Of a stretch of DNA of 41,974 bases, positions 14,394 through 30,814 are shown in pieces. Source of the stretch: Gemmatimonadota bacterium (GTDB lineage: Bacteria; Gemmatimonadota; Gemmatimonadetes; Gemmatimonadales; GWC2-71-9); the NCBI GenBank assembly GCA_016209985.1, contig JACQVB010000199.1, forward strand, positions 1-41,974. The letters run 5' to 3'. A model generated the notes under the pieces. That model saw only the letters and a list, made by a program, of their open reading frames with translations, did no database searches and was not told the origin of the DNA. The position numbers and the translations under genes are program-made. Every line of letters begins with the position of its first letter. Position 1 is the stretch's first letter.

Positions 14394-15206
14394 CTATCTT
14401 GCCGGTGGCAACTCGATCTCGAAGTGGAACCGCGTGCCCCGGTTGGACGAGGTCTCGGCTTTCAGCTCGGAACCCATGGCCGATACCAGCTTGTGCGAGA
14501 TTGCCAGCCCGAGGCCGGAGCTCGAGAAATGACCGCGATCTTGCTCGTGGCTGCTGTGGAAGGGCTCGAAGAGATGGGCCATTTCTTCCGGCTCGATTCC
14601 CCGTCCGGTGTCCCGCACCGAGAACTCCATCCGGCTGCCACCCACCGGCCGTGCGGAAATCGTGACCGAGCCCTGATCGGTGTTCTTGACGGCGTTAGTC
14701 GCGAGGTTCAGCAACACCCGGCTCAGCGCGCGGGGGAATCCGAGCCGTTGATCGGGCTCGGCAGATTCGATCTGAAGCTGAAGACCCCGGACTTCCACCA
14801 TCGGGCGAACCATGTCCCGAACAGTGGCCAGGATTTCCGCCATCGAGAACCGCAGCGGCGTGCCTTCCACCAGCCGGTCCCCGGCCCGCGCCAGCTCGAT
14901 GACATCGCTGGCAGTGGCGCACAGGCAGAGCGCGGCGCTGTAGATCAGACGCAGCTGCCGCTGTTGCGTAGTGCTGACCGGCCCGCTTTGTCCTGACTGG
15001 AGCAACTCGGCGAGGGAAATGATGGATGTCAGCGGCGAGCGCAGATCGTGGGCCATCTCCACCACCAGATCGACTTCCCGCTCGCGCAGCAGACCCGGTC
15101 GCAGCGGATCGTCCTTCCGATCGTACCGCCCCGGCAGCAGCAGCCGGGCGGCGGCGTCTGCCTTGTCGTTCGTCACCGTCTGGATCTGCATCTCATTTGC
15201 TCCCAT
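14394..15206 (-). CDS. soluble sensor histidine kinase, partner of the sigma-54 response regulator
   Basis: A 270-residue histidine kinase with no membrane segment and no recognisable sensor domain. The phospho-accepting His53 lies in EMAHDLRSPLTS. The ATPase domain shows the N-box (Asn171 in NLATNAVKNT), G1 DTGRGI (199-204), LFEPF and G2 SSGLGLAI (229-236). It is translationally coupled to the regulator gene upstream: ATG 15206 overlaps its stop by 14 bp, and a second ATG at 15191 with GGGAG 9 bp before it is an equally good start. A kinase plus sigma-54 regulator next to EPS genes matches the PrsK/PrsR arrangement of exosortase-A loci, although PrsK is larger and membrane-bound. Confidence 0.9.
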   Translation of the reverse strand: MGANEMQIQTVTNDKADAAARLLLPGRYDRKDDPLRPGLLREREVDLVVEMAHDLRSPLTSIISLAELLQSGQSGPVSTTQQRQLRLIYSAALCLCATASDVIELARAGDRLVEGTPLRFSMAEILATVRDMVRPMVEVRGLQLQIESAEPDQRLGFPRALSRVLLNLATNAVKNTDQGSVTISARPVGGSRMEFSVRDTGRGIEPEEMAHLFEPFHSSHEQDRGHFSSSGLGLAISHKLVSAMGSELKAETSSNRGTRFHFEIELPPAR

Positions 15207-16809
15207 GGGTTCCGTCGTGTTCGCCGGCGGGGCCGGCAGCCGCCGCCGTATCGCGAGACACCAGCCAGGCTGCGCTGTGACTGCGCTGCAGTCCGTGACG
15301 CTCCATCAGCCGGTAGAGCGTGGTCCGGTCCACTCCTGCGATCCGTGCGGCCTTCGACATGTTGCCGCCGGCGCGATTGATCAACCAGGTCAGGTACTGG
15401 CGTTCGAATTGCGCGATGACCCGGTCGCGCGCCGCGTGGTAGCTCTCGCCCAGTGCCGTGGAGATCATGGCGTCCGAGCCGAGCTCGCTCGGTAGTCCGG
15501 GGCCGGCCGCGAGGGCCAGCTGCTCCGGACCGATCTCCGAGCCCGGGTCCACCAGGACCACGGTGTGCTCGATGACGTTCTGCAGCTCCCGGACGTTTCC
15601 CCGCCAGGGATGGGCACTGAGGGCGCGCAATGCCGCATCCGTGAACGCCGGCATCGGCGTGCCTTTACGACGGTGCCGCGCCCAGTACGACCGGAGGAAA
15701 TGCTCGGCTAGCGGCGTGATGTCTTCGGGGCGCTCGCGTAGCGGCGGCACCCGCAGAGGCACCACCCGGAGGCGGTAGTAGAGGTCGTCGCGAAGATTGC
15801 CCGACCGCATGGCCGCGTCGGGGTCGCCATTGGTAGCCGCGATGATCCGCACGTTGACGACCGCGTCCGTCCCTTCGCTGCCCACCCGGCGCACGACCCC
15901 GTCCTGGATGACCCGCAGCAGCTTCGCCTGGATGGTCTTCGGCATTTCCAGCAGTTCGTCCAGGAACAGCGTGCCCCCGCTGGCGGTCTCGAACAGGCCG
16001 GGTTTGTCGCGAACGGCGCCGGTGAAGGCGCCCTTGCGATGTCCGAACATCTCGGACTCGAGGAGCGTCTCCGGCATCGCGGCGCAGTTGATCGCGACGA
16101 AGGGCCGACTGGAACGGCGACTATGCTGGTGAATGAAGCGCGCAATCAGCTCCTTGCCGCTCCCGCTCTCGCCGGTGATGAACACCGAAGCGTCGGTCGG
16201 CGCCACCTTGCGCGCCAGCGCGATGACTTCGTTGAACATGGGCGAGGAGCCCAGCATGGTGAGTTTTTCACCGGCCCCACCCTGCGGGCTGTCCAGCTGC
16301 ACATCCTGATCGCCTTTTTCCCGCGACACCAGCAGCGTGTGCGCCGCCCGGCCGATGAGGATCTGCAGGTGACTCGCCGAAAACGGCTTCGGCAGATAAT
16401 CCCAGGCGCCGTGCCGCAACGCTTCGATGCTCGACTCGAGACTGGGATTGCCCGTCATTACGACGACGATGGCATCACGGTTGGTGGAGAGCGCGGCCTT
16501 GAGCAGGTCCATTCCGCTCACCTGCGACATGTAGAGGTCGCACAAAACGATATCGAAAGGCCGGCGGCGAAGCAGCTCGAGCGCTTCCTGCCCCCGGCCC
16601 ATGGTCGTGACATCGTAGCCTTCACCCTGTAGCACGCTGGCGCAGCCTTCGCGCAAGGTGTGCTCGTCGTCTACGATGAGAATCTTGATGCCGGCGCGCG
16701 CCTCGCGTCCTACCGGCAGTGGGCGGACGACATCCCGCCCTGGTGTGCTTTCCGCACTCGCAGCGCGGGATTCTTCCGCTGACTGCTCTGATGTAATCGG
16801 TGTCGACAT
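15193..16809 (-). CDS. sigma-54-dependent response regulator (NtrC family)
   Basis: A 538-residue activator. The receiver domain (about 42-155) is intact: acidic pair Asp47-Asp48, phospho-acceptor Asp91 (VLCDLYMSQVSG) and Lys141 in DYLPKPF. The AAA+ domain has Walker A GESGSGKE (213-220), the sigma-54 contact loop GAFTGA (260-265) and Walker B GTLFLDE (279-285). A Fis-type helix-turn-helix (NMSKAARIAGVDRTTLYRLM) lies near the C terminus, followed by an extra tail of about 25 residues. ATG 16809 is chosen over upstream in-frame codons because residues before it are not protein-like. It should activate sigma-54 promoters of this locus; a candidate lies before the adjacent wzc gene. Confidence 0.94.
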   Translation of the reverse strand: MSTPITSEQSAEESRAASAESTPGRDVVRPLPVGREARAGIKILIVDDEHTLREGCASVLQGEGYDVTTMGRGQEALELLRRRPFDIVLCDLYMSQVSGMDLLKAALSTNRDAIVVVMTGNPSLESSIEALRHGAWDYLPKPFSASHLQILIGRAAHTLLVSREKGDQDVQLDSPQGGAGEKLTMLGSSPMFNEVIALARKVAPTDASVFITGESGSGKELIARFIHQHSRRSSRPFVAINCAAMPETLLESEMFGHRKGAFTGAVRDKPGLFETASGGTLFLDELLEMPKTIQAKLLRVIQDGVVRRVGSEGTDAVVNVRIIAATNGDPDAAMRSGNLRDDLYYRLRVVPLRVPPLRERPEDITPLAEHFLRSYWARHRRKGTPMPAFTDAALRALSAHPWRGNVRELQNVIEHTVVLVDPGSEIGPEQLALAAGPGLPSELGSDAMISTALGESYHAARDRVIAQFERQYLTWLINRAGGNMSKAARIAGVDRTTLYRLMERHGLQRSHSAAWLVSRDTAAAAGPAGEHDGTHGSK

Positions 16810-16863
16810 TTCCCTACAGCCCCCCTTTGCGGGCTGTCTAGAAGCAGGAACAGGGCCATAACG

Positions 16864-16972
16864 CTGCAGGCGCGCTATGCTGCGTGGAATCAACCACATG
16901 CGCATGGCTCGGCGATTTGACATCGGAAAACGCTGCACCATGCTGCCCCCAGTTTTCCACAATCGCTGCACT
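16864..16972. promoter_or_regulatory. cluster of GCTGC half-sites upstream of the wzc-like gene
   Basis: In the divergent region between the sigma-54 regulator and wzc, five GCTGC words occur within about 110 bp (as in AACGCTGCAG, TATGCTGCGT, AACGCTGCAC, CATGCTGCCC, ATCGCTGCAC), 40-150 bp upstream of the candidate -24/-12 element. This is the place where an enhancer-binding protein would sit. The spacing is irregular, and the assignment is a guess from position and repetition. Confidence 0.3.
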
Positions 16973-21060: not shown

Positions 21061-22886
21061 TGTGTGGAATCGTCGGATATCTCGGGCCACGGGACGCCGC
21101 GCCGATTCTGCTCGCCGGGCTCACCCGTCTCGAATACAGGGGATATGACTCGGCAGGTGTGGCGGTCCAGACCGAATCGGGACTCACCCTCCGCAAGCTG
21201 GCCGGCCGGATCGGCGGGCTGAAGATCGCGCTGGGCCGTGACCCGGTCACCGGATCCTGCGGCATCGCCCACACCCGGTGGGCGACCCATGGCGCCCCCA
21301 ATGAGCGCAACGCCCATCCTCATGTGGATTGCACCGGCCAGATCGCGGTAGTGCACAACGGCATCATCGAAAACGCGGACGTCCTGCGCACCCGGCTGGA
21401 GTGCTGCGGCCACCACTTCGTCACCGAAACCGACACCGAAACGCTGGCGCATTTGATCGAGGACGCCGACGGTCCCACCCTCGAATCGCGGGTGATCGCC
21501 GCGTTGACGCACGTCGAAGGCACCTACGGTCTCGCCGTCATCGCCGCCGGCGAACCGGACAAGATCGTGGTGGCCCGGCGCGGCTCACCGGTGCTGCTCG
21601 GCGTGGGCGAACAGGAGTACTTTGTCGCTTCCGACGCCAGCGCGGTACTGGAGCACACCCGTTCGGTCGTGTATCTCGACGACGGCGACATCGCGGTGCT
21701 GACCCGTACCGGCTATCACGTCATCGATCGGGAAGCCCGGGTCCAGACCCGGCCGGTCAACGCTCTCGATTGGGACCTGGAGCAAATCGCGCTCGGTGAG
21801 TACAGCCACTTCATGCTGAAAGAGATCTGCGAGCAGCCGCGCACGCTGCAGGAAACGCTGCGCGGCCGCCTGCTCTTCGCCGACGGCACCGCGCGTCTGA
21901 ACGGCCTGAACCTCACGCCGGAAGACTGCCGCACCCTCGGCCGGATCGTCATCGTGGCGTGCGGAACGTCCTGGCACGCCGGCCTTGCCGGCCGCCACAT
22001 CATCGAAGCGTTGGCCGGCGTCCCGGTTCAGGTGGAGTACGCGTCGGAATTCCGCTATCGGCAGCCGGTGGGCATGCCCGGAGCGCTGACCATCGCGATT
22101 TCCCAGTCGGGAGAGACGGCCGACACGCTCGAAGCGCTCCGTGCCGCCCGCGCCGCGGGATCGAAAGTCATCGGGGTGGTGAACGTGGTGGGCAGTACCA
22201 TCGCGCGTGAAGCGGATGGCGGCATCTATCTCCACGCCGGCCCGGAGATCGGGGTCGCCTCCACCAAGGCCTTTACCTCGCAGATCACCGCCCTCCTGCT
22301 GCTCGGTCTCTACCTGGCCCGCCATCGGGGTCTTTCGTTGGGCGACGGACGCAAGATGGTCGAGCAGCTCGCGCGGCTTCCCGATCTCGCGGCCGAGGCG
22401 CTTCAGATCGAGGGCGAGATCAAGGCCCTGGCCCAGAGCTATGTGGAGGAGCGCAACGCGCTGTACCTGGGACGCGGGATCAACTTCCCCGTGGCGCTGG
22501 AAGGTGCCCTCAAGCTGAAGGAGATCAGCTACATCCATGCGGAGGGCTATCCCGCGGCCGAGATGAAACACGGTCCCATCGCGCTGATCGACCAGGACAT
22601 GCCGGTCATCTTCCTGGCGCCGAAGGATGCGGTCTATCCCAAGGTCATCTCCAACATGCAGGAAGTGAAAGCCCGTGGTGGCAGGATCATCGCGATCACC
22701 AGCAAGGGGAATGGTGACCTGCGCGGCCTGGTGGATCACCAGCTGAGTGTTCCGCCGAGTCCCTCGCTGCTTTCGCCGGTGTTGACCGTTATTCCACTTC
22801 AACTGTTCGCCTATCACATCGCCGCAATGCGGGGCTATGACGTCGATCGCCCGCGCAACCTGGCGAAAAGCGTGACCGTCGAATGA
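21060..22886 (+). CDS. glmS: glutamine-fructose-6-phosphate aminotransferase (isomerising)
   Basis: A 608-residue enzyme making glucosamine-6-phosphate, the first committed step to UDP-GlcNAc. The start at MCGIVGYLG is dictated by nucleophile Cys2. The glutaminase domain shows RLEYRGYDSAG and HTRWATHGAPNERNAHPH (given here in part). Two SIS domains follow (CGTSWHAG, SQSGETADT, STKAFTSQ), and the C terminus is the conserved DRPRNLAKSVTVE. Full length. It overlaps the SLBB gene by 4 bp, so amino-sugar supply and polymer export are made from one message. A second glmS may exist elsewhere for the cell wall; that cannot be judged here. Confidence 0.97.
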   Translation: MCGIVGYLGPRDAAPILLAGLTRLEYRGYDSAGVAVQTESGLTLRKLAGRIGGLKIALGRDPVTGSCGIAHTRWATHGAPNERNAHPHVDCTGQIAVVHNGIIENADVLRTRLECCGHHFVTETDTETLAHLIEDADGPTLESRVIAALTHVEGTYGLAVIAAGEPDKIVVARRGSPVLLGVGEQEYFVASDASAVLEHTRSVVYLDDGDIAVLTRTGYHVIDREARVQTRPVNALDWDLEQIALGEYSHFMLKEICEQPRTLQETLRGRLLFADGTARLNGLNLTPEDCRTLGRIVIVACGTSWHAGLAGRHIIEALAGVPVQVEYASEFRYRQPVGMPGALTIAISQSGETADTLEALRAARAAGSKVIGVVNVVGSTIAREADGGIYLHAGPEIGVASTKAFTSQITALLLLGLYLARHRGLSLGDGRKMVEQLARLPDLAAEALQIEGEIKALAQSYVEERNALYLGRGINFPVALEGALKLKEISYIHAEGYPAAEMKHGPIALIDQDMPVIFLAPKDAVYPKVISNMQEVKARGGRIIAITSKGNGDLRGLVDHQLSVPPSPSLLSPVLTVIPLQLFAYHIAAMRGYDVDRPRNLAKSVTVE

Positions 22887-23509
22887 AAACCATCGTCCGT
22901 TTTGCCCAGCTCGCAATCGTCCTGTCTTGCGTCACCCCGGTCGCTCGTGCCCAGGAGCTGGTGCGGCCGTTCCAGGTGGGAGACCGGATCCTGCTCAAGA
23001 TCGAGGGTGACTCCACCCTCAGCGACACCTTCAGCGTCGTGGCCGGACCCGCAATCGACTTACCGGTGATCGGGCTGGTCCCGCTCGGAAGCACCAAGCG
23101 GGCTGACGTCCAGCCGTACCTGACCGAGAAGCTGAGTCATTACCTGCGGGAGCCCATCGTCCGCGCTAAGGCCCTGGTCCGAATCTCCATCGAGGGTGAG
23201 GTGACCAGGCCCGGCTTCTATGCAGTGCCGATGGACTACGTCCTGGGTGACGCACTGATGGCCGCGGGCGGTCTGACGCCCAGCGCCAAGGTCGGCGACC
23301 TAAAGATCAATCGGGGAGGGAAGGACCTGCTCCAGGGAAAAACCTTCGAGTACGCCGTGGCGCACGAGACCATCGACCAACTGGGGTTGAGGGCCGGCGA
23401 CCGGATCCTGATCCCGCGCAGAGCGGACACCGAATCGAGGGTGCGGACGCTCAGCATCCTGCTGGGGATTCCCGTCGCGATCTTCACGATCACCCGTCTC
23501 GCCCTCTAG
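22883..23509 (+). CDS. SLBB-domain polysaccharide export protein (Wza-like, short form)
   Basis: A 208-residue exported protein. The N terminus is a signal peptide (MKTIVRFAQLAIVLSC...ARAQ): cleavage after ARA is possible, or lipidation at Cys16 if VLSC acts as a lipobox. The polysaccharide-export domain starts at FQVGDRILLKIEGD (about 30-110), and an SLBB domain contains ISIEGEVTRPGFYAVP and DALMAAGGLTPSAKVGDL. A hydrophobic C-terminal helix (LSILLGIPVAIFTITRLAL) could span the outer membrane, as in Wza. It starts inside the glmS stop (ATGA). It should form or line the outer-membrane exit for the polymer with the Wzc-like protein. Confidence 0.9.
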   Translation: MKTIVRFAQLAIVLSCVTPVARAQELVRPFQVGDRILLKIEGDSTLSDTFSVVAGPAIDLPVIGLVPLGSTKRADVQPYLTEKLSHYLREPIVRAKALVRISIEGEVTRPGFYAVPMDYVLGDALMAAGGLTPSAKVGDLKINRGGKDLLQGKTFEYAVAHETIDQLGLRAGDRILIPRRADTESRVRTLSILLGIPVAIFTITRLAL

Positions 23510-23526: not shown

Positions 23527-24720
23527 ATGTTGATCGTCTCGGTGGTCGGTGCCCGGCCCAACGTCATGAAGCTGGCGCCGGTCGAACGCGAGCTGGCGCG
23601 ACGTCCCGACGTGGAGCACGTGGTGGTGCATACCGGGCAGCACTATGACCCGGAAATGTCGGAGGCCTTCTTCCAGGATCTCTGGATACCGCGGCCGCAG
23701 CACAACCTGGGGGTGGGATCGGGCACCCACGCCCAACAGACGGCGGCGGTGATGCTCCGCATCGAACCCATTCTCCAGCTCGTCCGTCCCGACGTCGTGG
23801 TCGTCTACGGTGACGTCAACTCCACCGTCGCGGCCGCGTTGGTGGCGGCGAAGCTGGGCATCCGGGTGGCCCACGTGGAAGCCGGCCTTCGCAGCCGCGA
23901 CTGGTCCATGCCCGAGGAAATCAATCGGGTCCTGACCGACCGGATCGCGGATCTGCTCTTCGCGCCGTCACCTGACGCGGTGCAGAACCTGATCGCCGAA
24001 GGGACGCCGCGCGAGCGGGTGCACTTCGTGGGCAACGTGATGATCGACTCGCTCTGCTGGGCCCTTCCCCAGGCTCGCACGCTCGACACGGTGACCCGGC
24101 ACGGAGTGGAAGGAACCCCGTTCGTCGTGGTGACGCTGCACCGTCCCGCGACGGTGGACAACCCCGCCGCGCTCCGCGAAATGCTGGATACTCTCGTGGC
24201 GCTCGGGGAGGACTGCCCGGTCCTCTTCCCGGTCCATCCCCGCACCCGTGAACGGATCCACGATACCGGATTCCCGGCCGAGGGGCGTGGCGGGTTGCGA
24301 CTGCTCGATCCGATGGGATACGTGGAAATGCTGGGGCTGGTCGCGTCGGCTCGCCTGGTTCTCACCGACTCGGGTGGTCTCCAGGAAGAGACCAGCTATC
24401 TGGGCGTTCCCTGCCTGACCGTCAGACAGAATACCGAGCGCCCGATCACCTGCCAGCTCGGCACCAATCGGCTAGTCGCCCCGCAGCGTGAAGTCGTGCT
24501 TGCCGCGGCTCGCCAGGCCCTCGAGCATCCGCTCGCCCACCGGCCGGTCATCGAGCGATGGGATGGCAAGGCGGCGCAACGCATCGCGGCTAGCCTCTGC
24601 GACGGGGCCCGCTTCGATCTGGACGCGCCGGCGCGCTCGCGCGCTCCGGAAACGTCTACCCGCCGCGTTTCGGAGCCAATCAGTGCAGCGGAGCTCGTGC
24701 CAACCGAAACTGCGGCATGA
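23527..24720 (+). CDS. wecB: UDP-N-acetylglucosamine 2-epimerase (non-hydrolysing)
   Basis: A 397-residue enzyme interconverting UDP-GlcNAc and UDP-ManNAc. Conserved segments are SVVGARPNVMKLAP (N-terminal UDP-binding), HTGQHYDPEMS, YGDVNST, HVEAGLRS, PEEINRVLTD, TLHRPATVDN and TDSGGLQEE. The last 35 residues are an extra Ala/Thr/Arg-rich tail. It lies 17 bp after the SLBB gene and is probably co-transcribed with glmS. No UDP-ManNAc dehydrogenase is in the window, so whether ManNAc itself or ManNAcA is used is open. Confidence 0.95.
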   Translation: MLIVSVVGARPNVMKLAPVERELARRPDVEHVVVHTGQHYDPEMSEAFFQDLWIPRPQHNLGVGSGTHAQQTAAVMLRIEPILQLVRPDVVVVYGDVNSTVAAALVAAKLGIRVAHVEAGLRSRDWSMPEEINRVLTDRIADLLFAPSPDAVQNLIAEGTPRERVHFVGNVMIDSLCWALPQARTLDTVTRHGVEGTPFVVVTLHRPATVDNPAALREMLDTLVALGEDCPVLFPVHPRTRERIHDTGFPAEGRGGLRLLDPMGYVEMLGLVASARLVLTDSGGLQEETSYLGVPCLTVRQNTERPITCQLGTNRLVAPQREVVLAAARQALEHPLAHRPVIERWDGKAAQRIAASLCDGARFDLDAPARSRAPETSTRRVSEPISAAELVPTETAA

Positions 24721-24775
24721 GCTCTGTCACTCAGCCGCCGCGCCAGTTCGGCCCGGCAACGGATGGAGAGTATCG

Positions 24776-25063
24776 ATGCATCGCCGTGCACAAGAGTTTC
24801 ACCGGATTCACACGGAAGAACGTTTGATGCTTCGGCGGCATGCGCTTGACCGTCGGGGTGCCCTCGAGCGGCGCGCCCCCGCCGGCCGGCGAAAGATCGA
24901 GGTGCCGGTGGCGGAAGACCGTCGCGAGGGTGACGACCGCCGCTCCAGCGGCGAACGACGGGAAGGCGCGGAGCGGCGTAGCCGAAGCGACCGGCGGCAA
25001 AGAGTGTCGTCTCTCTTGATGGATGGACTGGCGATACGGGATCAAGGCGGCCGGCGCCGTTAA
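24776..25063 (+). CDS. small Arg-rich hypothetical protein with repeated RR-G-RR motifs
   Basis: A 95-residue, strongly charged protein with no membrane segment. From residue 26 it repeats a motif of paired arginines and acidic/glycine spacers (DRRGALERR, EDRREGDDRRSSGERREGAER, SDRRQR). Similar DRR-G-DRR linkers occur next to signalling domains, but here the motif makes up most of the protein. ATG 24776 is one of several possible starts; a weak GGAGAG lies before it. It follows wecB by 55 bp. Function unknown, and a chance frame in GC-rich DNA cannot be excluded, though it is flanked by regulatory-looking gaps. Confidence 0.4.
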   Translation: MHRRAQEFHRIHTEERLMLRRHALDRRGALERRAPAGRRKIEVPVAEDRREGDDRRSSGERREGAERRSRSDRRQRVSSLLMDGLAIRDQGGRRR

Positions 25064-25112
25064 CCTTACGACCTGACTCTTACCAACTCTTACGACCCCT
25101 ACCGCCCTACTG
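25064..25112. repeat. single tandem arm of CTTAC(C/G)A units
   Basis: CCTTACGACC, ACTCTTACCA, ACTCTTACGACC and CCTACCG follow one another directly after the small Arg-rich gene. They resemble the right arm of the element at 19460 (TTACCGACTC units), but no complementary left arm is visible. It may be a decayed element or a remnant of terminator expansion. Confidence 0.45.
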
Positions 25113-25137
25113 TCTCCTCTCCGCTGCGTTGCAGCGT

Positions 25138-25152
25138 GGCATCGCATTTGCG
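25138..25152 (+). promoter_or_regulatory. sigma-54 promoter of the 49-aa membrane protein
   Basis: TGGCATCGCATTTGC matches the -24/-12 consensus at TGGCA and TTGC with GG (25139-25140) and GC (25151-25152) exactly 10 bp apart. Predicted start near 25164, 45 bp before the ATG of the small gene. It overlaps two perfect hairpins, CGCTGC-GTT-GCAGCG (25123-25137) and CATCGCA-TT-TGCGATG (25141-25156). The second spans the promoter itself and could bind a regulator. Confidence 0.7.
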
Positions 25153-25208
25153 ATGACCGTGCTCGCAGATGCAACGACCGTAAACCTGAACGTGTTCGAG
25201 AGGAAATT

Positions 25209-25358
25209 ATGCTGGTGAAAAAAGTCTGGCACACTGCGAGCGTGGTGTTCGTCGTCGCAACCGGAATGGCACTATGGGCTTTGCTGCGCGAGGATCACGC
25301 GCTGCTGGAGCGCAAGGAAAACGAGTTGGACCGCCTCCGTAACCTGGGCGCCGCGTGA
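25209..25358 (+). CDS. 49-residue single-pass membrane protein
   Basis: A short gene with a textbook ribosome site (GAGAGGAAA, 5 bp spacing) and its own sigma-54-type promoter. The product begins MLVKKVWHTASVV, has one membrane helix (about 8-27) and ends in a charged helix LLERKENELDRLRNLGAA with leucine spacing suggestive of a coiled coil. N-terminal lysines predict a cytoplasmic N terminus, with the coiled part outside. No family recognised. It lies between the EPS genes and the stressosome operon and could be a small regulator or assembly factor of either. Confidence 0.75.
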   Translation: MLVKKVWHTASVVFVVATGMALWALLREDHALLERKENELDRLRNLGAA

Positions 25359-25650
25359 ACCCGGTCCAAGTGTCCCTATTGCGTATTCAATAGGAAGAAG
25401 GGAGGAGAAGAAGGGGCTTTAGAAGAAGGGGCTTTCAGAAGAGAATACCCAGCCTAGACAGCTCGCCTACAGTTTCTGTGCAGCAACCAGCCACTGTTGC
25501 CCAACCACGTAATGTTGGCAATATTTTGGTGCTAAGCTTCAAACTCGGTGCATCCTAATGTTGCACAAATAGAAGCTTCCTGTCGGCTAAGAACATCACC
25601 AAGTCGTTAGCAGTAAGGATCTTGGGGGCATTGAAGCCGCCCTGTCGTGC
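25359..25650. other. AT-richer non-coding region upstream of the stressosome operon
   Basis: No credible gene. It holds a hairpin CCTATTG-6-CAATAGG (25375-25394) 16 bp after the small gene, a perfect 15-bp tandem duplication AGAAGAAGGGGCTTT (25406-25435), an inverted repeat GCAAC-8-GTTGC (25483-25500), and a direct repeat TAATGTTG (25510-25517 and 25556-25563). The last two lie 90-170 bp upstream of a -24/-12 promoter, the usual place for enhancer sites. Base composition is visibly lower in GC than the flanks. Confidence 0.5.
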
Positions 25651-25665
25651 TGGCACTACGTTTGC
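25651..25665 (+). promoter_or_regulatory. strong sigma-54 promoter of the stressosome operon
   Basis: TGGCACTACGTTTGC matches all six bases of the -24 box TGGCAC and all four of the -12 core TTGC, with GG (25652-25653) and GC (25664-25665) at exactly 10-bp separation. Predicted start near 25677, about 108 bp before the RsbR ATG. It is the best -24/-12 match noticed in the window. The operon it would drive encodes its own sigma-54 activator. Confidence 0.8.
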
Positions 25666-25784
25666 GTGTGGCGACCGCACCACATTGAGGCTCATGCGGC
25701 GCCCGTCGGTAGCGGGCCGCGGGTGAGCGCGTGCCTTTTCACCAGGTCGCATTTATTTCACGACGAACTACCCGGGGCCCGTCT

Positions 25785-26702
25785 ATGGCAGCGAAGCAGA
25801 GTCCTTCCGTTGTCTCTCCCGAGCGGCAAACCGGCGCGGGAGCGGACATCGCCGCGCTGCTGCGTGAGCTGGTGGCTCACCTCCGGCAGAACCGGACCCA
25901 GCTGCGCGAGGAATGGGCGCGCCGCATCACCCGCGCCCAGCTGCTGACCGCGATGACCGAAGAGGAGATCTTCGCCGAGGCCACGTCGGTATACGACAAC
26001 TACGTCGAGGCGCTGGAAACGGGCACGTTCGAGGCGTTGCAGGCCTATGCGCGTAATCTGTCGGAGCGCATCATCCCGCGGGGCGTCGAAACCCACGAAG
26101 TCGTCGGCATCGTCTTGCTGCTGCGCGACGTGCTCGCCCGGTCGCTGTTCGCCAAGTACCACGAAGACTTCGAGAAGCTGAACCGGATCCTCGACGCCTA
26201 CGAGCCCGCCGCCAACCGGATCGCCAACACGGTGGCGGTCGGCTTCGTCCAGGAGCGCGAGCGCATCATCCGGCAGCAGCAGGAAGCGATCCGCGAGCTG
26301 TCCACGCCCGTGCTCCAGGTGCGCGAGCGCCTCCTGATTCTGCCCATCATCGGGGTGATCGATCCGCAGCGCGCCCGCCAGCTCACCGAGCAGCTGCTGC
26401 GGGCGATTCGCACCAACCGCGCCAAGGTGGTGGTCATCGACATCACCGGTGTGGCGGCCATGGACGCCAACGTGGCCAACCACCTGGTGCAGACCGTCGA
26501 AGCGGCCCGGCTGCTCGGCGCCACGGTGATCGTGACCGGCCTCTCTCCGGAGATCGCCCAGACCCTGGTGACCATCGGGGTGGACTTGAGCGAAATGGCC
26601 ACCGTCGGCGACCTGCAGGGAGGCATCGAGGAAGCCGAACGACTGCTCGGCTACAAGGTCGTGCTCCAGTCCGAGCTGCCGCACCCGGCAACCAAGGCGT
26701 AA
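25785..26702 (+). CDS. rsbR: stressosome scaffold/sensor protein RsbR
   Basis: A 305-residue RsbR. The N-terminal all-helical (globin-like RsbR_N) domain covers about 20-160. It is followed by the linker helix ERERIIRQQQEAIRELSTPVLQ and a STAS domain (about 175-295) with LLILPIIGVIDPQRARQ, VVVIDITGVAAMD and GATVIVTGLSPEIAQTLV. RsbR and RsbS build the large icosahedral stressosome that holds RsbT. By alignment to Bacillus RsbRA, the site of Thr171 is Ala228 (DANVANH), while the Thr205 position is Thr273. ATG 25785 is chosen; a GTG at 25731 is possible. First gene of the sigma-54-driven operon. Confidence 0.92.
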   Translation: MAAKQSPSVVSPERQTGAGADIAALLRELVAHLRQNRTQLREEWARRITRAQLLTAMTEEEIFAEATSVYDNYVEALETGTFEALQAYARNLSERIIPRGVETHEVVGIVLLLRDVLARSLFAKYHEDFEKLNRILDAYEPAANRIANTVAVGFVQERERIIRQQQEAIRELSTPVLQVRERLLILPIIGVIDPQRARQLTEQLLRAIRTNRAKVVVIDITGVAAMDANVANHLVQTVEAARLLGATVIVTGLSPEIAQTLVTIGVDLSEMATVGDLQGGIEEAERLLGYKVVLQSELPHPATKA

Positions 26703-26711
26703 GGGGGGCCG

Positions 26712-27083
26712 GTGGAAGTCCCTATCCTCAAACAGGGCCACTTTCTGATCGCCTCGATCCAGTCCGCCTTGACCGATGCGGACCTGTCCCAGTTGCGCGA
26801 GGCGCTGGTATTGCGCGTCGGCAAGCTGCGCGCCCGGGGCGTCATCGTGGACGTGACCGCGCTCGACGTCATGGACTCCTTCGCCGTCCGGACGCTGCGC
26901 GACATCGCGCACATGACCCGGCTGCGCGGTGCGGAAACCGTCATCGTCGGCATCCAACCCGAAGTTGCCTTCGCCATGGTGCAGCTTGGGCTCACCCTCA
27001 AGGGCGTCGCCACCGCGCTCGACCTGGAGGAGGGCCTTGCGTTCCTCGACCGCTTTACCAAGGAGCGTTTCGAACGTGCGTGA
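26712..27083 (+). CDS. rsbS: stressosome STAS protein RsbS
   Basis: A 123-residue single STAS-domain protein, the antagonist subunit that holds RsbT. GTG start with AAGGGGG just upstream. The phosphorylation site is present: Ser56 in VDVTALDVMDSFAVR, equivalent to Ser59 of Bacillus RsbS. The C-terminal half (ETVIVGIQPEVAFAMVQLGL) is canonical. It lies 9 bp after rsbR and overlaps rsbT by 8 bp. Phosphorylation by RsbT should release the kinase. Confidence 0.93.
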   Translation: MEVPILKQGHFLIASIQSALTDADLSQLREALVLRVGKLRARGVIVDVTALDVMDSFAVRTLRDIAHMTRLRGAETVIVGIQPEVAFAMVQLGLTLKGVATALDLEEGLAFLDRFTKERFERA

Positions 27084-27483
27084 AGAAACGCTCCAGCCGG
27101 TCTCTTCCGACGTCGACATCGTCAGCGCCCGCCAGAAGGGGCGCGAGCTGGCGGCCAAGGCGGGTTTCTCCGAAGGCGACCAGACGGTCATCGCGGCCGC
27201 CATTTCCGAAATCGCCCGCAACATCCTGATGTATGCCAAGCGCGGGGAAGTGAGTGTGACCCTCGCCAATAGCGAGGACCGGATCGGGGTGATCGTCGTA
27301 GCTCGGGACCAGGGACCCGGGATCAGCGACGTCGCGCGCGCCCTGCAGGACGGCTACTCGACGTCGGGAGGCCTGGGGCTCGGGCTTCCCGGCGCGCGCC
27401 GCCTGATGGACGAGTTCGAAATCCATTCGGCCCCCGGACAAGGCACCACCGTCACGATGAAGAAGTGGAGACGCAGTGCCTAG
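27076..27483 (+). CDS. rsbT: serine/threonine kinase and switch protein RsbT
   Basis: A 135-residue GHKL-fold kinase. GTG 27076 is preceded by AAGGAG; the longer upstream frame lies inside rsbS. N-box EIARN (45-49), G1 box DQGPGI (78-83) and G2 box GLGLGLPGARRL (99-110) are all intact. In the known pathway it phosphorylates RsbS and RsbR, leaves the stressosome and activates a partner (RsbU in Bacillus). No RsbU, RsbV, RsbW or SigB gene follows here; a sigma-54 activator does. Confidence 0.94.
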   Translation: MREETLQPVSSDVDIVSARQKGRELAAKAGFSEGDQTVIAAAISEIARNILMYAKRGEVSVTLANSEDRIGVIVVARDQGPGISDVARALQDGYSTSGGLGLGLPGARRLMDEFEIHSAPGQGTTVTMKKWRRSA

Positions 27484-28099
27484 GCAGCTCCAGGCCGAGA
27501 TTCATGCGCTCGACTGGGCCGTTGCTTCGCGCGCGTTCCCGGGCGAAATCATCTCCGGCGACCACTCCCTGGTGAAGCGGTTTGCCAAGGGAATCCTGGT
27601 CGCGGTAGTCGACGCGCTGGGACATGGTCGGGAAGCCGCCCCCGCCGCCGGCAAGGCGATCGCCATCCTGGAGCGCTACGCACACGAGCCACTCCCCTCC
27701 ATTCTGCAGCGCTGCCACGGAGAGCTGATCGGCACCCGGGGCGTCGTGATGAGTCTCGCCAGCTTCAAGCCGTCCGACCGTTCCATGACCTGGCTGGGAG
27801 TGGGAAACGTCGAGGGTGTTCTGATCTCGGCCGATCCCAGAGCCAGGCCCCAAAGCACGATGCTGCTCACCCTCGGCGGGATCGTCGGAGGGGACCTTCC
27901 CAAGGTGAGTCCGTGGGTGGTCCCGCTCACTCGCGGCGACACGCTGGTCTTCAGCACCGACGGAGTCCGTCCCGGCTTCGCCTCCAGTATCACCCTCGCG
28001 GAATCGCCTCAGGAAATCGCCGACCGGGTGATCGCCGCTCACGCCAAGGAAACTGACGACGCGCTGGTGCTCGTCGTCCGCTACCTCGGGGACCAGTAG
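27476..28099 (+). CDS. rsbX: RsbX-like PP2C-family serine phosphatase
   Basis: A 207-residue SpoIIE/RsbX-type phosphatase that should dephosphorylate RsbS/RsbR and reset the stressosome. Metal-binding acidic motifs are GDHSL (Asp29), VVDALGHG (Asp46), STDGV (Asp162) and TDDALVL (Asp194/195). GTG start overlaps the rsbT stop by 8 bp. It lacks the N-terminal RsbT-binding domain of RsbU, which supports RsbX over RsbU. RsbR, S, T and X together make a complete core module. Confidence 0.9.
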
Positions 28100-28109
28100 A
28101 GGAAGAACC

Positions 28110-29516
28110 GTGTCTCATCCCACCGCCACCGATCTGCCGGTGCCGACGCCCGCGGCCAGGACGGTTAGCCCGGCCGGCATCCGGGTGCTGGCGGTCGGCG
28201 GGGAACCGACGACGGCGCAGGCGCTCCGCGACTGGGCCGCCGATCTCGGAGCCCAGTTCGAGCATGCGCCGGACCTGCCCCGCGCGGCCCGGGTGCTCGG
28301 TACCGGACGGTGGGACGTCGTGCTCGCCGTGCTCGCGGAGCAACCGGAAGACGAGCTGAGCTGGTGGGTGGACGCGCTTCGCGGGGCCCCGGGCACTCCC
28401 AAGCTGATCGGTCTCGCCAATCGCCCCTCCATGGGATTGGTCCTTCGCGCCGAAGAGCTCGGTGTGGTGGATCTGCTCTCCCTCCCGCCCCGCCGCGACC
28501 AGTTCCAGACTGCACTCTCCCGGGTGCGGGCCGCCGCGACCGAGCTGCCCATTCCGCTCCCCTCGGTAGAGGCGCACGCGGTCGGCCAGTACGCGCTCGT
28601 GGGGCAGAGCCACGCGATGGTCGATGTCTACAAACTCATCGCCCGGGTGGGACCGAGCACTGCAACCGTGGTCATCCAGGGCGAGTCCGGGACCGGCAAG
28701 GAAGTCGTCGCGCGGGCCATTCACCAGAACGGTCCCAAAGCCGCCGGTCCCTTCGTCGCGGTCAATTGCGCGGCGATTCCGGAGAACCTGCTCGAGTCCG
28801 AGTTGTTCGGCCACGAAAAGGGAGCCTTTACCGGTGCCGTGATCCGGAAGATCGGGCGCTTCGAGCAAGCGACGCGGGGAACGCTGTTCCTGGACGAAAT
28901 CGCCGACATGAGCCTCTCGCTGCAGAGCAAGATCCTGCGGGCGGTCCAGGAGCGGGAAATCGAGCGGGTCGGTGGGGGCGAGCCCATTCCGGTGGAGGTC
29001 CGGCTCATCGCCGCTACCAACAAGGACCTTCGTAGCGCGATCAACGAAGGCCGTTTTCGCGAGGACCTCTACTACCGGCTCGCGGTCGTCACCATCAACC
29101 TGCCGCGGCTGGTCGACCGGGGCGACGATCTGATCCTCCTCACCTCGCACTTCGCGCGCGAGTTCTCGGCCCGCAGCGGCAAATCGATTCGACGCATTTC
29201 CGACCGCGCGCTGGACCTGCTTCGCAACCACCGATGGGCGGGCAACGTCCGCGAGCTGCGGAACGTGATCGAGCGCGCCGTCATCGTGGCGACCGACGAT
29301 ACCCTGCGGGGCGAGCACCTTCCCGAGGAGTTTCGGGGGGAGGCCGAGGCCATGCCCGAGGCCTCCGCCGGCGGACTGGCCACGCTGGCGGAGGTCGAAG
29401 CGCGCCACATCACCCGGGTCCTGAGTCACACCGGCGGCCAGATCGGCGCCGCTGCCGAGATTCTCGGCATCCATCGGAACACGCTCGCGCGCAAGATCAA
29501 GGAGTACGGGCTGTGA
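28110..29516 (+). CDS. sigma-54 enhancer-binding protein with pseudo-receiver domain
   Basis: A 468-residue activator starting at GTG 28110 after AGAGGAAG, 10 bp downstream of rsbX. Residues 24-142 have the receiver length and pattern but no active residue: the acidic pair reads GGE, the acceptor position in DVVLAVL is Val, the Thr position is Ala103 and the Lys position is Leu125. The AAA+ domain is fully competent (Walker A GESGTGKE 191-198, GAFTGA 238-243, Walker B GTLFLDE 257-263), and a Fis-type HTH ends the protein ([20 protein letters not shown]). Control by phosphorylation is therefore unlikely; control by RsbT or another partner is proposed from context. Confidence 0.93.
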
Positions 29517-30814
29517 GCGAGCTTCCCGGCCGGCCGGCGGTGCGCGTCGAGCAGGCTCTGCGGATCCTGCCCGAGCTGGAGGTGCTGGCGCCGCTCCGCG
29601 CCGTGCTCATGGCGGCCGCCCGCGCGGACGACCTGGCGCAGTGGGGGCCGTCGGGACCGTATCTCACGCTCGGCAAGCGCGGCGTCCGGCCGGAAGATTT
29701 GCGGAGCGAGATCCCCAAGGCGATCCAGCGGGTAGCCACCCATCTGGGCGCGCTGTACGAGCATTACATCGAGGCCCTCGAGGCGCGCCAGTCCCGTGAC
29801 GGCGTCGCCACGGTGAAGGCATTACTGCGGGCCGGCGAGCGCGAGGAAGCCGTCGAGCGGCTGGCGCAGGCGCGCGCGTGGTACGAAGTGGCGCTCACCG
29901 TGTCGGAAGAGCTGCAGGACCGCCGGCCCGAGATCGAGACCCTGCGAGTGCTGGGCCATCTCGGGCTGCGCCAGGGCCGCTACAGCGTGGCGGCTCGCGC
30001 CTTCCAGCGCAGCTTCGTCCTGGCGGAGGCCGAATTCGACCAGGCGGGCGCGATCGCCGCCTGCCAAGGACTGGGCGAAGCGGACCTGACGCAAGGCGAG
30101 TGGCGCGGGGCGCGTGCCTGGTTCGCCCGCGGGTTGCGCCTGGCGGAAGCGGCGGACGACGATGCGAGCATCGGGAGTATCGAGCACCAGATCGCGGTGC
30201 TGGCATTGCGCGAAGGTGACCTCTCCGGCGTGGAAGATCACCTCGCCCGCGCGTATTCCCGCTTCGAGAAACTGGGGAACACCACGCACCTGGCCGAGGC
30301 CATGAATACCCGCGGGGTGCTGGAGACCACCTTGAACCGGTTCGGCCGCGCCGCCAGTGCCTATCGCGAGGCCCTCGCGTGGCTGCGGAAGGGAGAAGCC
30401 AACCCCGCCGTCGAGATTTCCATTCGGCTGAATCTGGCGGACATGTACCTCCGGACCGAGCGGGTGCTGGAGGCCGAAGAAGAGATCCGCCGGGCCGAGG
30501 AGCTGGCGATCGGCGAGAACCTTCCCCGGCGGCTCATCGAGATCTACAGCCTGATGGGCAAGCTCCGCGGCCACCAGAGCGACGAGACCGGGTTTGTCTT
30601 CTTTGAGCAGGCGGTCGAGCTCTGCCGCACGATGGACTGCCCACCCGCGCTGGAAGGCGAAGTCTATTACGGCTACGGGCTGTTCCGGGGGCAGCTCGGC
30701 AACCGCGAGGAGGCCCGCGCCTACCTGGAACGCGCTCGCGAGATCTTCGAATCAGTCGGAGGAGGCAGCGAGCTGGCGCGAGTGAGAGAGGAATTGAAGC
30801 GAATGAGCGCGTGA
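29513..30814 (+). CDS. TPR-repeat protein at the end of the stressosome operon
   Basis: A 433-residue soluble helical protein. GTG 29513 overlaps the activator stop (GTGA) and has AAGGAG 8 bp before it. The N-terminal 100 residues are a separate helical part. From about residue 115 there are seven or more tetratricopeptide-like repeats with Ala/Gly/Tyr at canonical places (for example [60 protein letters not shown]). Such proteins act as protein-binding scaffolds or sensors. Tight coupling suggests it works with the stressosome or the sigma-54 activator. No enzymatic motif seen. Confidence 0.85.

Follow-up and report, generated by a model that had tools for sequence, protein, structure and literature searches.

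A putative sigma-54-controlled gene for a 49-residue membrane protein beside a stressosome operon in Gemmatimonadota

The phage-shock membrane protein PspB is driven by sigma-54, and Qrr and CrcZ are sigma-54-dependent small RNAs. In Listeria, the membrane miniprotein Prli42 contacts the N-domain of RsbR through its cytosolic N-terminal residues K4, K5 and R8 (PMC6614362). Prli42 is conserved among Firmicutes, and a later study found no growth difference upon deletion of prli42 (PMC9840623), so the importance of Prli42 itself is debated. In Proteobacteria, sigma-54 together with PrsK/PrsR has been proposed to control PEP-CTERM genes (PMC9850573). Within the PEP-CTERM regulon, sigma-54 promoters lie 23–221 nt from the start codon, and a motif 1 with the core TTTACA, sometimes repeated, is found 32–92 nt before the sigma-54 motif (PMC1569441).

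Here we analyzed a short open reading frame (ORF) of a Gemmatimonadota bacterium (GCA_016209985.1; 4.64 Mb in 289 contigs, 95% complete and hence ∼5% missing). It lies on contig C159, whose whole length of 41,974 nt is referred to as the window. The relevant genes are:

23527–24720, plus strand: wecB (UDP-GlcNAc 2-epimerase), which closes the EPS cluster and is the syntenic neighbor upstream
25200–25205, plus strand: ribosome binding site GAGGAA, ending 3 nt ahead of the ATG
25209–25358, plus strand: 49-aa ORF, ATG at 25209, stop at 25356–25358
25785–26702, plus strand: rsbR (STAS domain; RsbRD_N match slightly under the cut-off)
26703 to 27483, plus strand: rsbS and rsbT, in an order kept in relatives
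27476–28099, plus strand: gene for an rsbX-like SpoIIE phosphatase
28110–29516, plus strand: gene for a sigma-54 activator (EBP)
29504–30814, plus strand: gene for a TPR protein, completing the operon order rsbR-rsbS-rsbT-rsbX-EBP-TPR

Like Prli42, the predicted product is a single-helix membrane miniprotein encoded alongside RsbR, RsbS and RsbT, with K4 and K5 in a basic N-tail and a likely N-in orientation; the third residue of this tail is H8 instead of R8. It differs from Prli42 in its length (49 residues, compared with 31 in the model NF033880), its long acidic zipper tail, its sigma-54-type promoter and its lack of conservation in relatives, and it does not match NF033880. Moreover, an N-terminal KK is common among small membrane proteins, which counts against the analogy. 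With the PrsK/PrsR regulon the locus shares an EPS-associated position, an intergenic –24/–12 promoter, a start-codon distance within 23–221 nt and upstream repeats, but the product carries no PEP-CTERM, the repeats have another core and the response regulator scores under the PrsR cut-off. In outline, the protein also resembles PspB, which is small, has a single N-terminal helix leading into a charged tail with spaced leucines, and has a sigma-54 promoter; unlike PspB, the 49-aa protein has no Pfam match, and no psp genes were seen in the window.

The 49-aa frame and its product

An SLBB export gene (22883–23509) and, after it, wecB close the EPS cluster, and the stressosome operon starts with rsbR, whose start codon we set by comparison with relatives. 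The 1.06-kb gap between wecB and rsbR contains the 49-aa ORF and two sigma-54-type sites. The first-pass annotation had placed an unannotated short gene with an excellent ribosome site between these two clusters, and both the location and the gene-like appearance are borne out: GAGGAA stands at 3-nt spacing, and the codon usage scores 0.33 per codon, where window genes cut to 49-codon pieces have a median of 0.34. Wrong-frame pieces have their 99th percentile at 0.29, below the value of the ORF, which none of 2000 base shuffles reached. The GC content at codon positions 1/2/3 is 0.69/0.37/0.78. The RNA of this stretch is less stably folded than its own shuffles (z +2.3), as expected of an mRNA rather than a structured RNA. 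Taken together, the 49-aa ORF is very probably a real gene.

Hydropathy places a membrane helix at about residues 8–26, with K4, K5 and H8 at the N-terminal side, and the sequence of the charged tail shows heptad leucines (L26, L33 and L40) as well as L43 and L46, in agreement with the single membrane helix and leucine-spaced charged tail described before. From single-sequence input, AlphaFold predicts one helix spanning residues 2–48 (mean pLDDT 83). The charge is +2 on the N side and about –3 on the C side (residues 27–41), a difference that by the charge rule favors an N-in topology.

The ORF is present in a single copy in its own genome. We found no homologue in 60 relatives, none in 102 family genomes at either the protein or the DNA level, and no credible one in 395 phylum genomes. 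The frame is accordingly not seen in close relatives, and conservation can neither back it nor show it broken. The protein has no match in Pfam, NCBIfam or PDB, and PHROGs gave only a match of E 0.13. Among GTDB contigs, the one match, in Actinomadura, covers 22 residues of the charged tail, and a 31-residue match (E 0.003) in the genome G050 lies within a 519-aa open frame. A family-level match in G076 falls within the reading frame of a 285-aa gene resembling lipoate-protein ligase and was rejected as spurious. The upstream regions examined in relatives contain no similar membrane ORF preceded by a ribosome site, and the stressosome-bearing relatives examined lack the 49-aa ORF despite RsbR proteins that are 84–95% identical. 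The stressosomes of this family therefore generally do not need such a protein.

Two sigma-54-type promoters in one gap

The regulatory features of the gap are as follows:

25065–25093, plus strand: three CTTAC repeats (at 25065, 25079 and 25089), 43–72 bp upstream of the –24 element
25122–25136, no strand: perfect palindrome CGCTGC-GTT-GCAGCG, abutting the –24 element
25137–25152, plus strand: sigma-54-type promoter TGGCATCGCATTTGCG, predicted start site ∼25163
25140–25155, no strand: perfect palindrome CATCGCA-TT-TGCGATG, overlapping –24 and –12
25142–25181, no strand: direct repeats TCGCANNTGCRAYGACCGT with a 21-bp spacing, reaching over –12 and the start site
25651–25666, plus strand: second sigma-54 promoter TGGCACTACGTTTGCG, upstream of rsbR, the best site in the window
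25667–25684, no strand: imperfect 18-bp palindrome TGTGGC-GACCGC-ACCACA at the rsbR start site

In TGGCATCGCATTTGCG, 10 nt separate GG (25138–25139) from GC (25150–25151), which is the standard –24/–12 spacing. With 13.5 bits it is the second-best sigma-54-like site of the window, where 0.9 such sites are expected by chance (42 kb, both strands). The strict pattern TGGCAYN5TTGCR matches four times in the 4.64-Mb genome, and a reversed control pattern six times. Two of these four matches sit in the wecB-rsbR gap, on the same strand and 514 bp apart, so the pair, not either site alone, is the significant fact. The remaining two are located before a secreted-looking ORF (C137) and at the start of a larger ORF (C34); neither precedes a similar small ORF. 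Based on the spacing, the pairing and a same-type site in relatives (see below), the short gene appears to have its own sigma-54 promoter, as initially proposed. The proposed distance of 45 bp has to be corrected: the end of the –12 element lies 57 bp from the ATG, and ∼45 bp is the distance of the ATG from the expected start site.

Both palindromes reported at the promoter are indeed perfect and lend it an operator-like symmetry of putative function; only the one at 25140 overlaps the promoter, while the other abuts the –24 element. Among random 90-mers with the composition of the window, 0.4% contain two such palindromes, one with 7-bp arms, and 0.1% contain a direct repeat like the 19-bp one at 25142/25163 (15 of 19 positions identical, spacing 21 bp), but these statistics are post hoc, and the sigma-54 consensus letters themselves favor such symmetry. 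The palindrome at 25140 is not kept at the corresponding promoters of relatives. The repeats TCGCANNTGCRAYGACCGT could possibly serve as tandem operators. Judged by their distance, the CTTAC repeats are possible activator sites; this distance is comparable to that of motif 1 (PMC1569441), and their core differs from TTTACA. With the corrections to promoter distance and palindrome overlap, the first-pass observation as a whole largely holds; it mentions neither the CTTAC repeats nor the stronger sigma-54 site at 25651.

The counterpart of the 25651 site, TGGCAYTAGCCTTGCT, precedes rsbR in at least 16 relative loci, indicating that the stressosome operon itself is under a conserved sigma-54-type promoter. 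In nearly all of these loci, TGGCAYTAGCCTTGCT is followed by the palindrome TGTTGC-N6-GCAACA, at the offset where the window has TGTGGC-N6-ACCACA. In one genus (g28) of the family, the stressosome operon lacks this promoter site. Besides having its own conserved promoter, the operon encodes the EBP, for which Pfam detected no receiver domain in the first 160 residues. The two activators of the window score 371.5 and 355.8 bits against TIGR02915, and thus do not reach its cut-off of 502.6. On this evidence, a coding ORF under sigma-54 control is probable.

The same slot in related genomes

The order wecB-slot-rsbRST is kept in five loci from two genera (G016 and G072; G026:C77, G084 and G077). 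In four of these, synteny extends to the SLBB gene on the upstream side and to rsbX-EBP-TPR on the downstream side, while the G077 contig stops in rsbT. Compared with the window, identity in the five loci is 91–94% for RsbR, ∼92% for RsbS, 71–74% for the EBP and 62–66% for wecB. RsbR and RsbS, which are encoded at 25785–26990 and show 91–97% identity across genera compared with 43–76% for flanking proteins, appear as unusually constrained shell proteins.

Seven relative loci carry YGGCATC-type sigma-54-like sites ahead of the slot. The closest, CGGCATCGCTTTTGCGAAGAC in G026:C77, shares 18 of 21 positions with the window. From the syntenic position and the letters of this short motif, we infer that the 25137 site is orthologous to the slot site of the relatives. 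A structured element starts 51–74 nt past the first nucleotide of the slot site.

In two related genera, this element is a previously undescribed structured RNA between wecB and rsbR. Its first model was built from ten copies upstream of rsbR in four genera. These ten and copies from elsewhere are:

Ten loci upstream of rsbR, in the slot equivalent to window 25137–25650: L067 (1501–1618, minus strand), L077, L066 and L068–L074
L089, 1476–1620: copy outside the stressosome locus
L090, 1476–1620: copy outside the stressosome locus
L092, minus strand, sigma-54-like site at 954: copy outside the stressosome locus
L091, minus strand, sigma-54-like site at 1465: likely a fourth copy outside this locus with the site shortly ahead of it

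The RNA has a GC-rich stem on the outside and a variable one inside, with conserved internal loops TGACCATTCGCGGATTGCGT and frequently a T run. In an alignment of 18 sequences that includes copies found elsewhere, 95.5% of cells are paired and 12 of 25 pairs are changed on both sides (compensatory), figures that are somewhat favorable because the alignment was fitted to the model; none of 500 shuffles reached any of five measures. The model R1 found the RNA in 11 of 102 family genomes and R2 in 11 of 395 phylum genomes, all from the family of the window, and a laxer search of 25 genomes added two weak matches. The RNA has no matching Rfam family. It was found by R1 and R2 neither at 25100–25700 of the window nor elsewhere in this genome, and together with the fold z-score both models lead us to reject a structured-RNA reading of the window transcript.

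A sigma-54-like site lies upstream of the RNA in seven of the ten rsbR loci and within 150 nt upstream in 10 of 21 copies, compared with 0.04 expected per copy, whereby the copies are related and the counts are not independent. In L089, L090 and L092 the site stands 25–26 nt before the model start; the copy in L090 comes after three tRNA genes. No such site accompanies the copies before an apparent proline dehydrogenase gene or those 3′ of a secreted-protein gene. Diverged copies before a proline dehydrogenase-like gene occur in genus g16 (L080, L076, L082 and L088) and are possibly cis-regulatory leaders. The RNA resembles Qrr and CrcZ in being structured, behind a sigma-54-like site and near a gene for an NtrC-type activator. 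Unlike them, it has a long imperfect hairpin with conserved internal loops, no Rfam match and a distribution restricted to one family of this phylum. It is a candidate for a new RNA class and may act as an sRNA, a leader or a terminator-like element.

Function of the locus and competing explanations

The explanation we prefer, with a rough probability of 0.35, is that the ORF forms a sigma-54-dependent unit of its own and encodes a lineage-specific membrane microprotein, co-regulated with the stressosome operon and most likely acting as the membrane accessory of the stressosome. One activator, probably the EBP of the stressosome operon, would drive both sigma-54 promoters, and the 49-aa protein would consequently be made together with the stressosome. 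It may insert with its short basic N-terminus (K4, K5 and H8) in the cytosol and the acidic leucine-zipper tail outside, dimerize by this zipper and tether or tune the RsbR/RsbS shell at the membrane by contacting RsbR, as Prli42 does in Listeria. Its gene would occupy the slot held in relatives by the structured RNA behind the same promoter type. The coding signal, the paired sigma-54 sites, the conserved second promoter, synteny and the single long helix speak for this explanation; the lack of a homologue in 395 phylum genomes and of an NF033880 match speaks against it. A stressosome role of the protein, taken by itself, is possible but doubtful. Of the initial reading, a small membrane-protein gene with its own sigma-54-type promoter and operator-like symmetry is supported; the suggestion that the protein may be an effector of either EPS or the stressosome is weakened as a conserved function, as the relatives examined lack the ORF. 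The locus bears on the way in which stressosomes come to the membrane and on their targets in bacteria that lack sigma-B. Should the protein bind RsbR, tethering to the membrane through a miniprotein would also have evolved outside the Firmicutes.

Given the conserved sigma-54 promoter of the stressosome operon and the sigma-54 activator gene within it, we favor a stressosome link over an EPS link, for which specific support is lacking. An export accessory at the membrane, controlled by the PrsR-like response regulator of the EPS cluster (15193–16905), would fit the adjoining upstream EPS genes, the CTTAC repeats at activator distance and the proposed PrsK/PrsR control of PEP-CTERM genes (PMC9850573). 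However, the repeats differ from the TTTACA core, the regulator scores 371 against TIGR02915 (cut-off 502.6), and relatives with the same EPS neighbors (wecB and the SLBB gene) lack the 49-aa ORF, which makes this account unlikely. Another account is an ancestral regulatory-RNA unit, in which the promoter is orthologous to that of the structured RNA in relatives, the RNA was lost here and the ORF is young and translated with little or no function. The shared slot and promoter type, the presence of the RNA in relatives but not here, and the orphan status of the ORF all agree with such a history. Yet a codon usage equal to that of established genes would be unusual for a newborn ORF, the ribosome site is good, and the RNA could equally be a gain in relatives; we regard this unit as rather unlikely, if worth keeping in mind. 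It is improbable that the gap is a sigma-54-controlled regulator slot in which part of one family has the RNA, co-expressed with the stressosome, and in which the same promoter here drives a membrane microprotein, so that a protein would have replaced an RNA as regulator of one stress-sensing machine.

A coincidence of chance ORF and chance promoter would explain why the ORF is not conserved, and about one sigma-54 match of such quality is expected per window. The coding score, the tandem placement with a conserved second site and the same-type site at the syntenic place in relatives make this quite improbable. Finally, the size, topology and patchy distribution of the protein, together with operator-like symmetry over the promoter, would suit a small peptide that acts on membranes like type I toxins and is tightly repressed via the palindromes. 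Sigma-54 control would be unusual for such toxins, and no sigma-70-like antisense promoter was found in 24600–26000, so we consider a toxin very improbable.

Two further observations concern the rest of the gap. Between wecB and the 49-aa ORF lies a 78-aa arginine-rich ORF with DRR/ERR repeats (24827–25063), which has a weak coding score (0.05) and no match in syntenic relatives. In the purine-rich stretch 3′ of the 49-aa ORF, AGAAGAAGGGGCTTT is perfectly repeated in tandem at 25406–25435.
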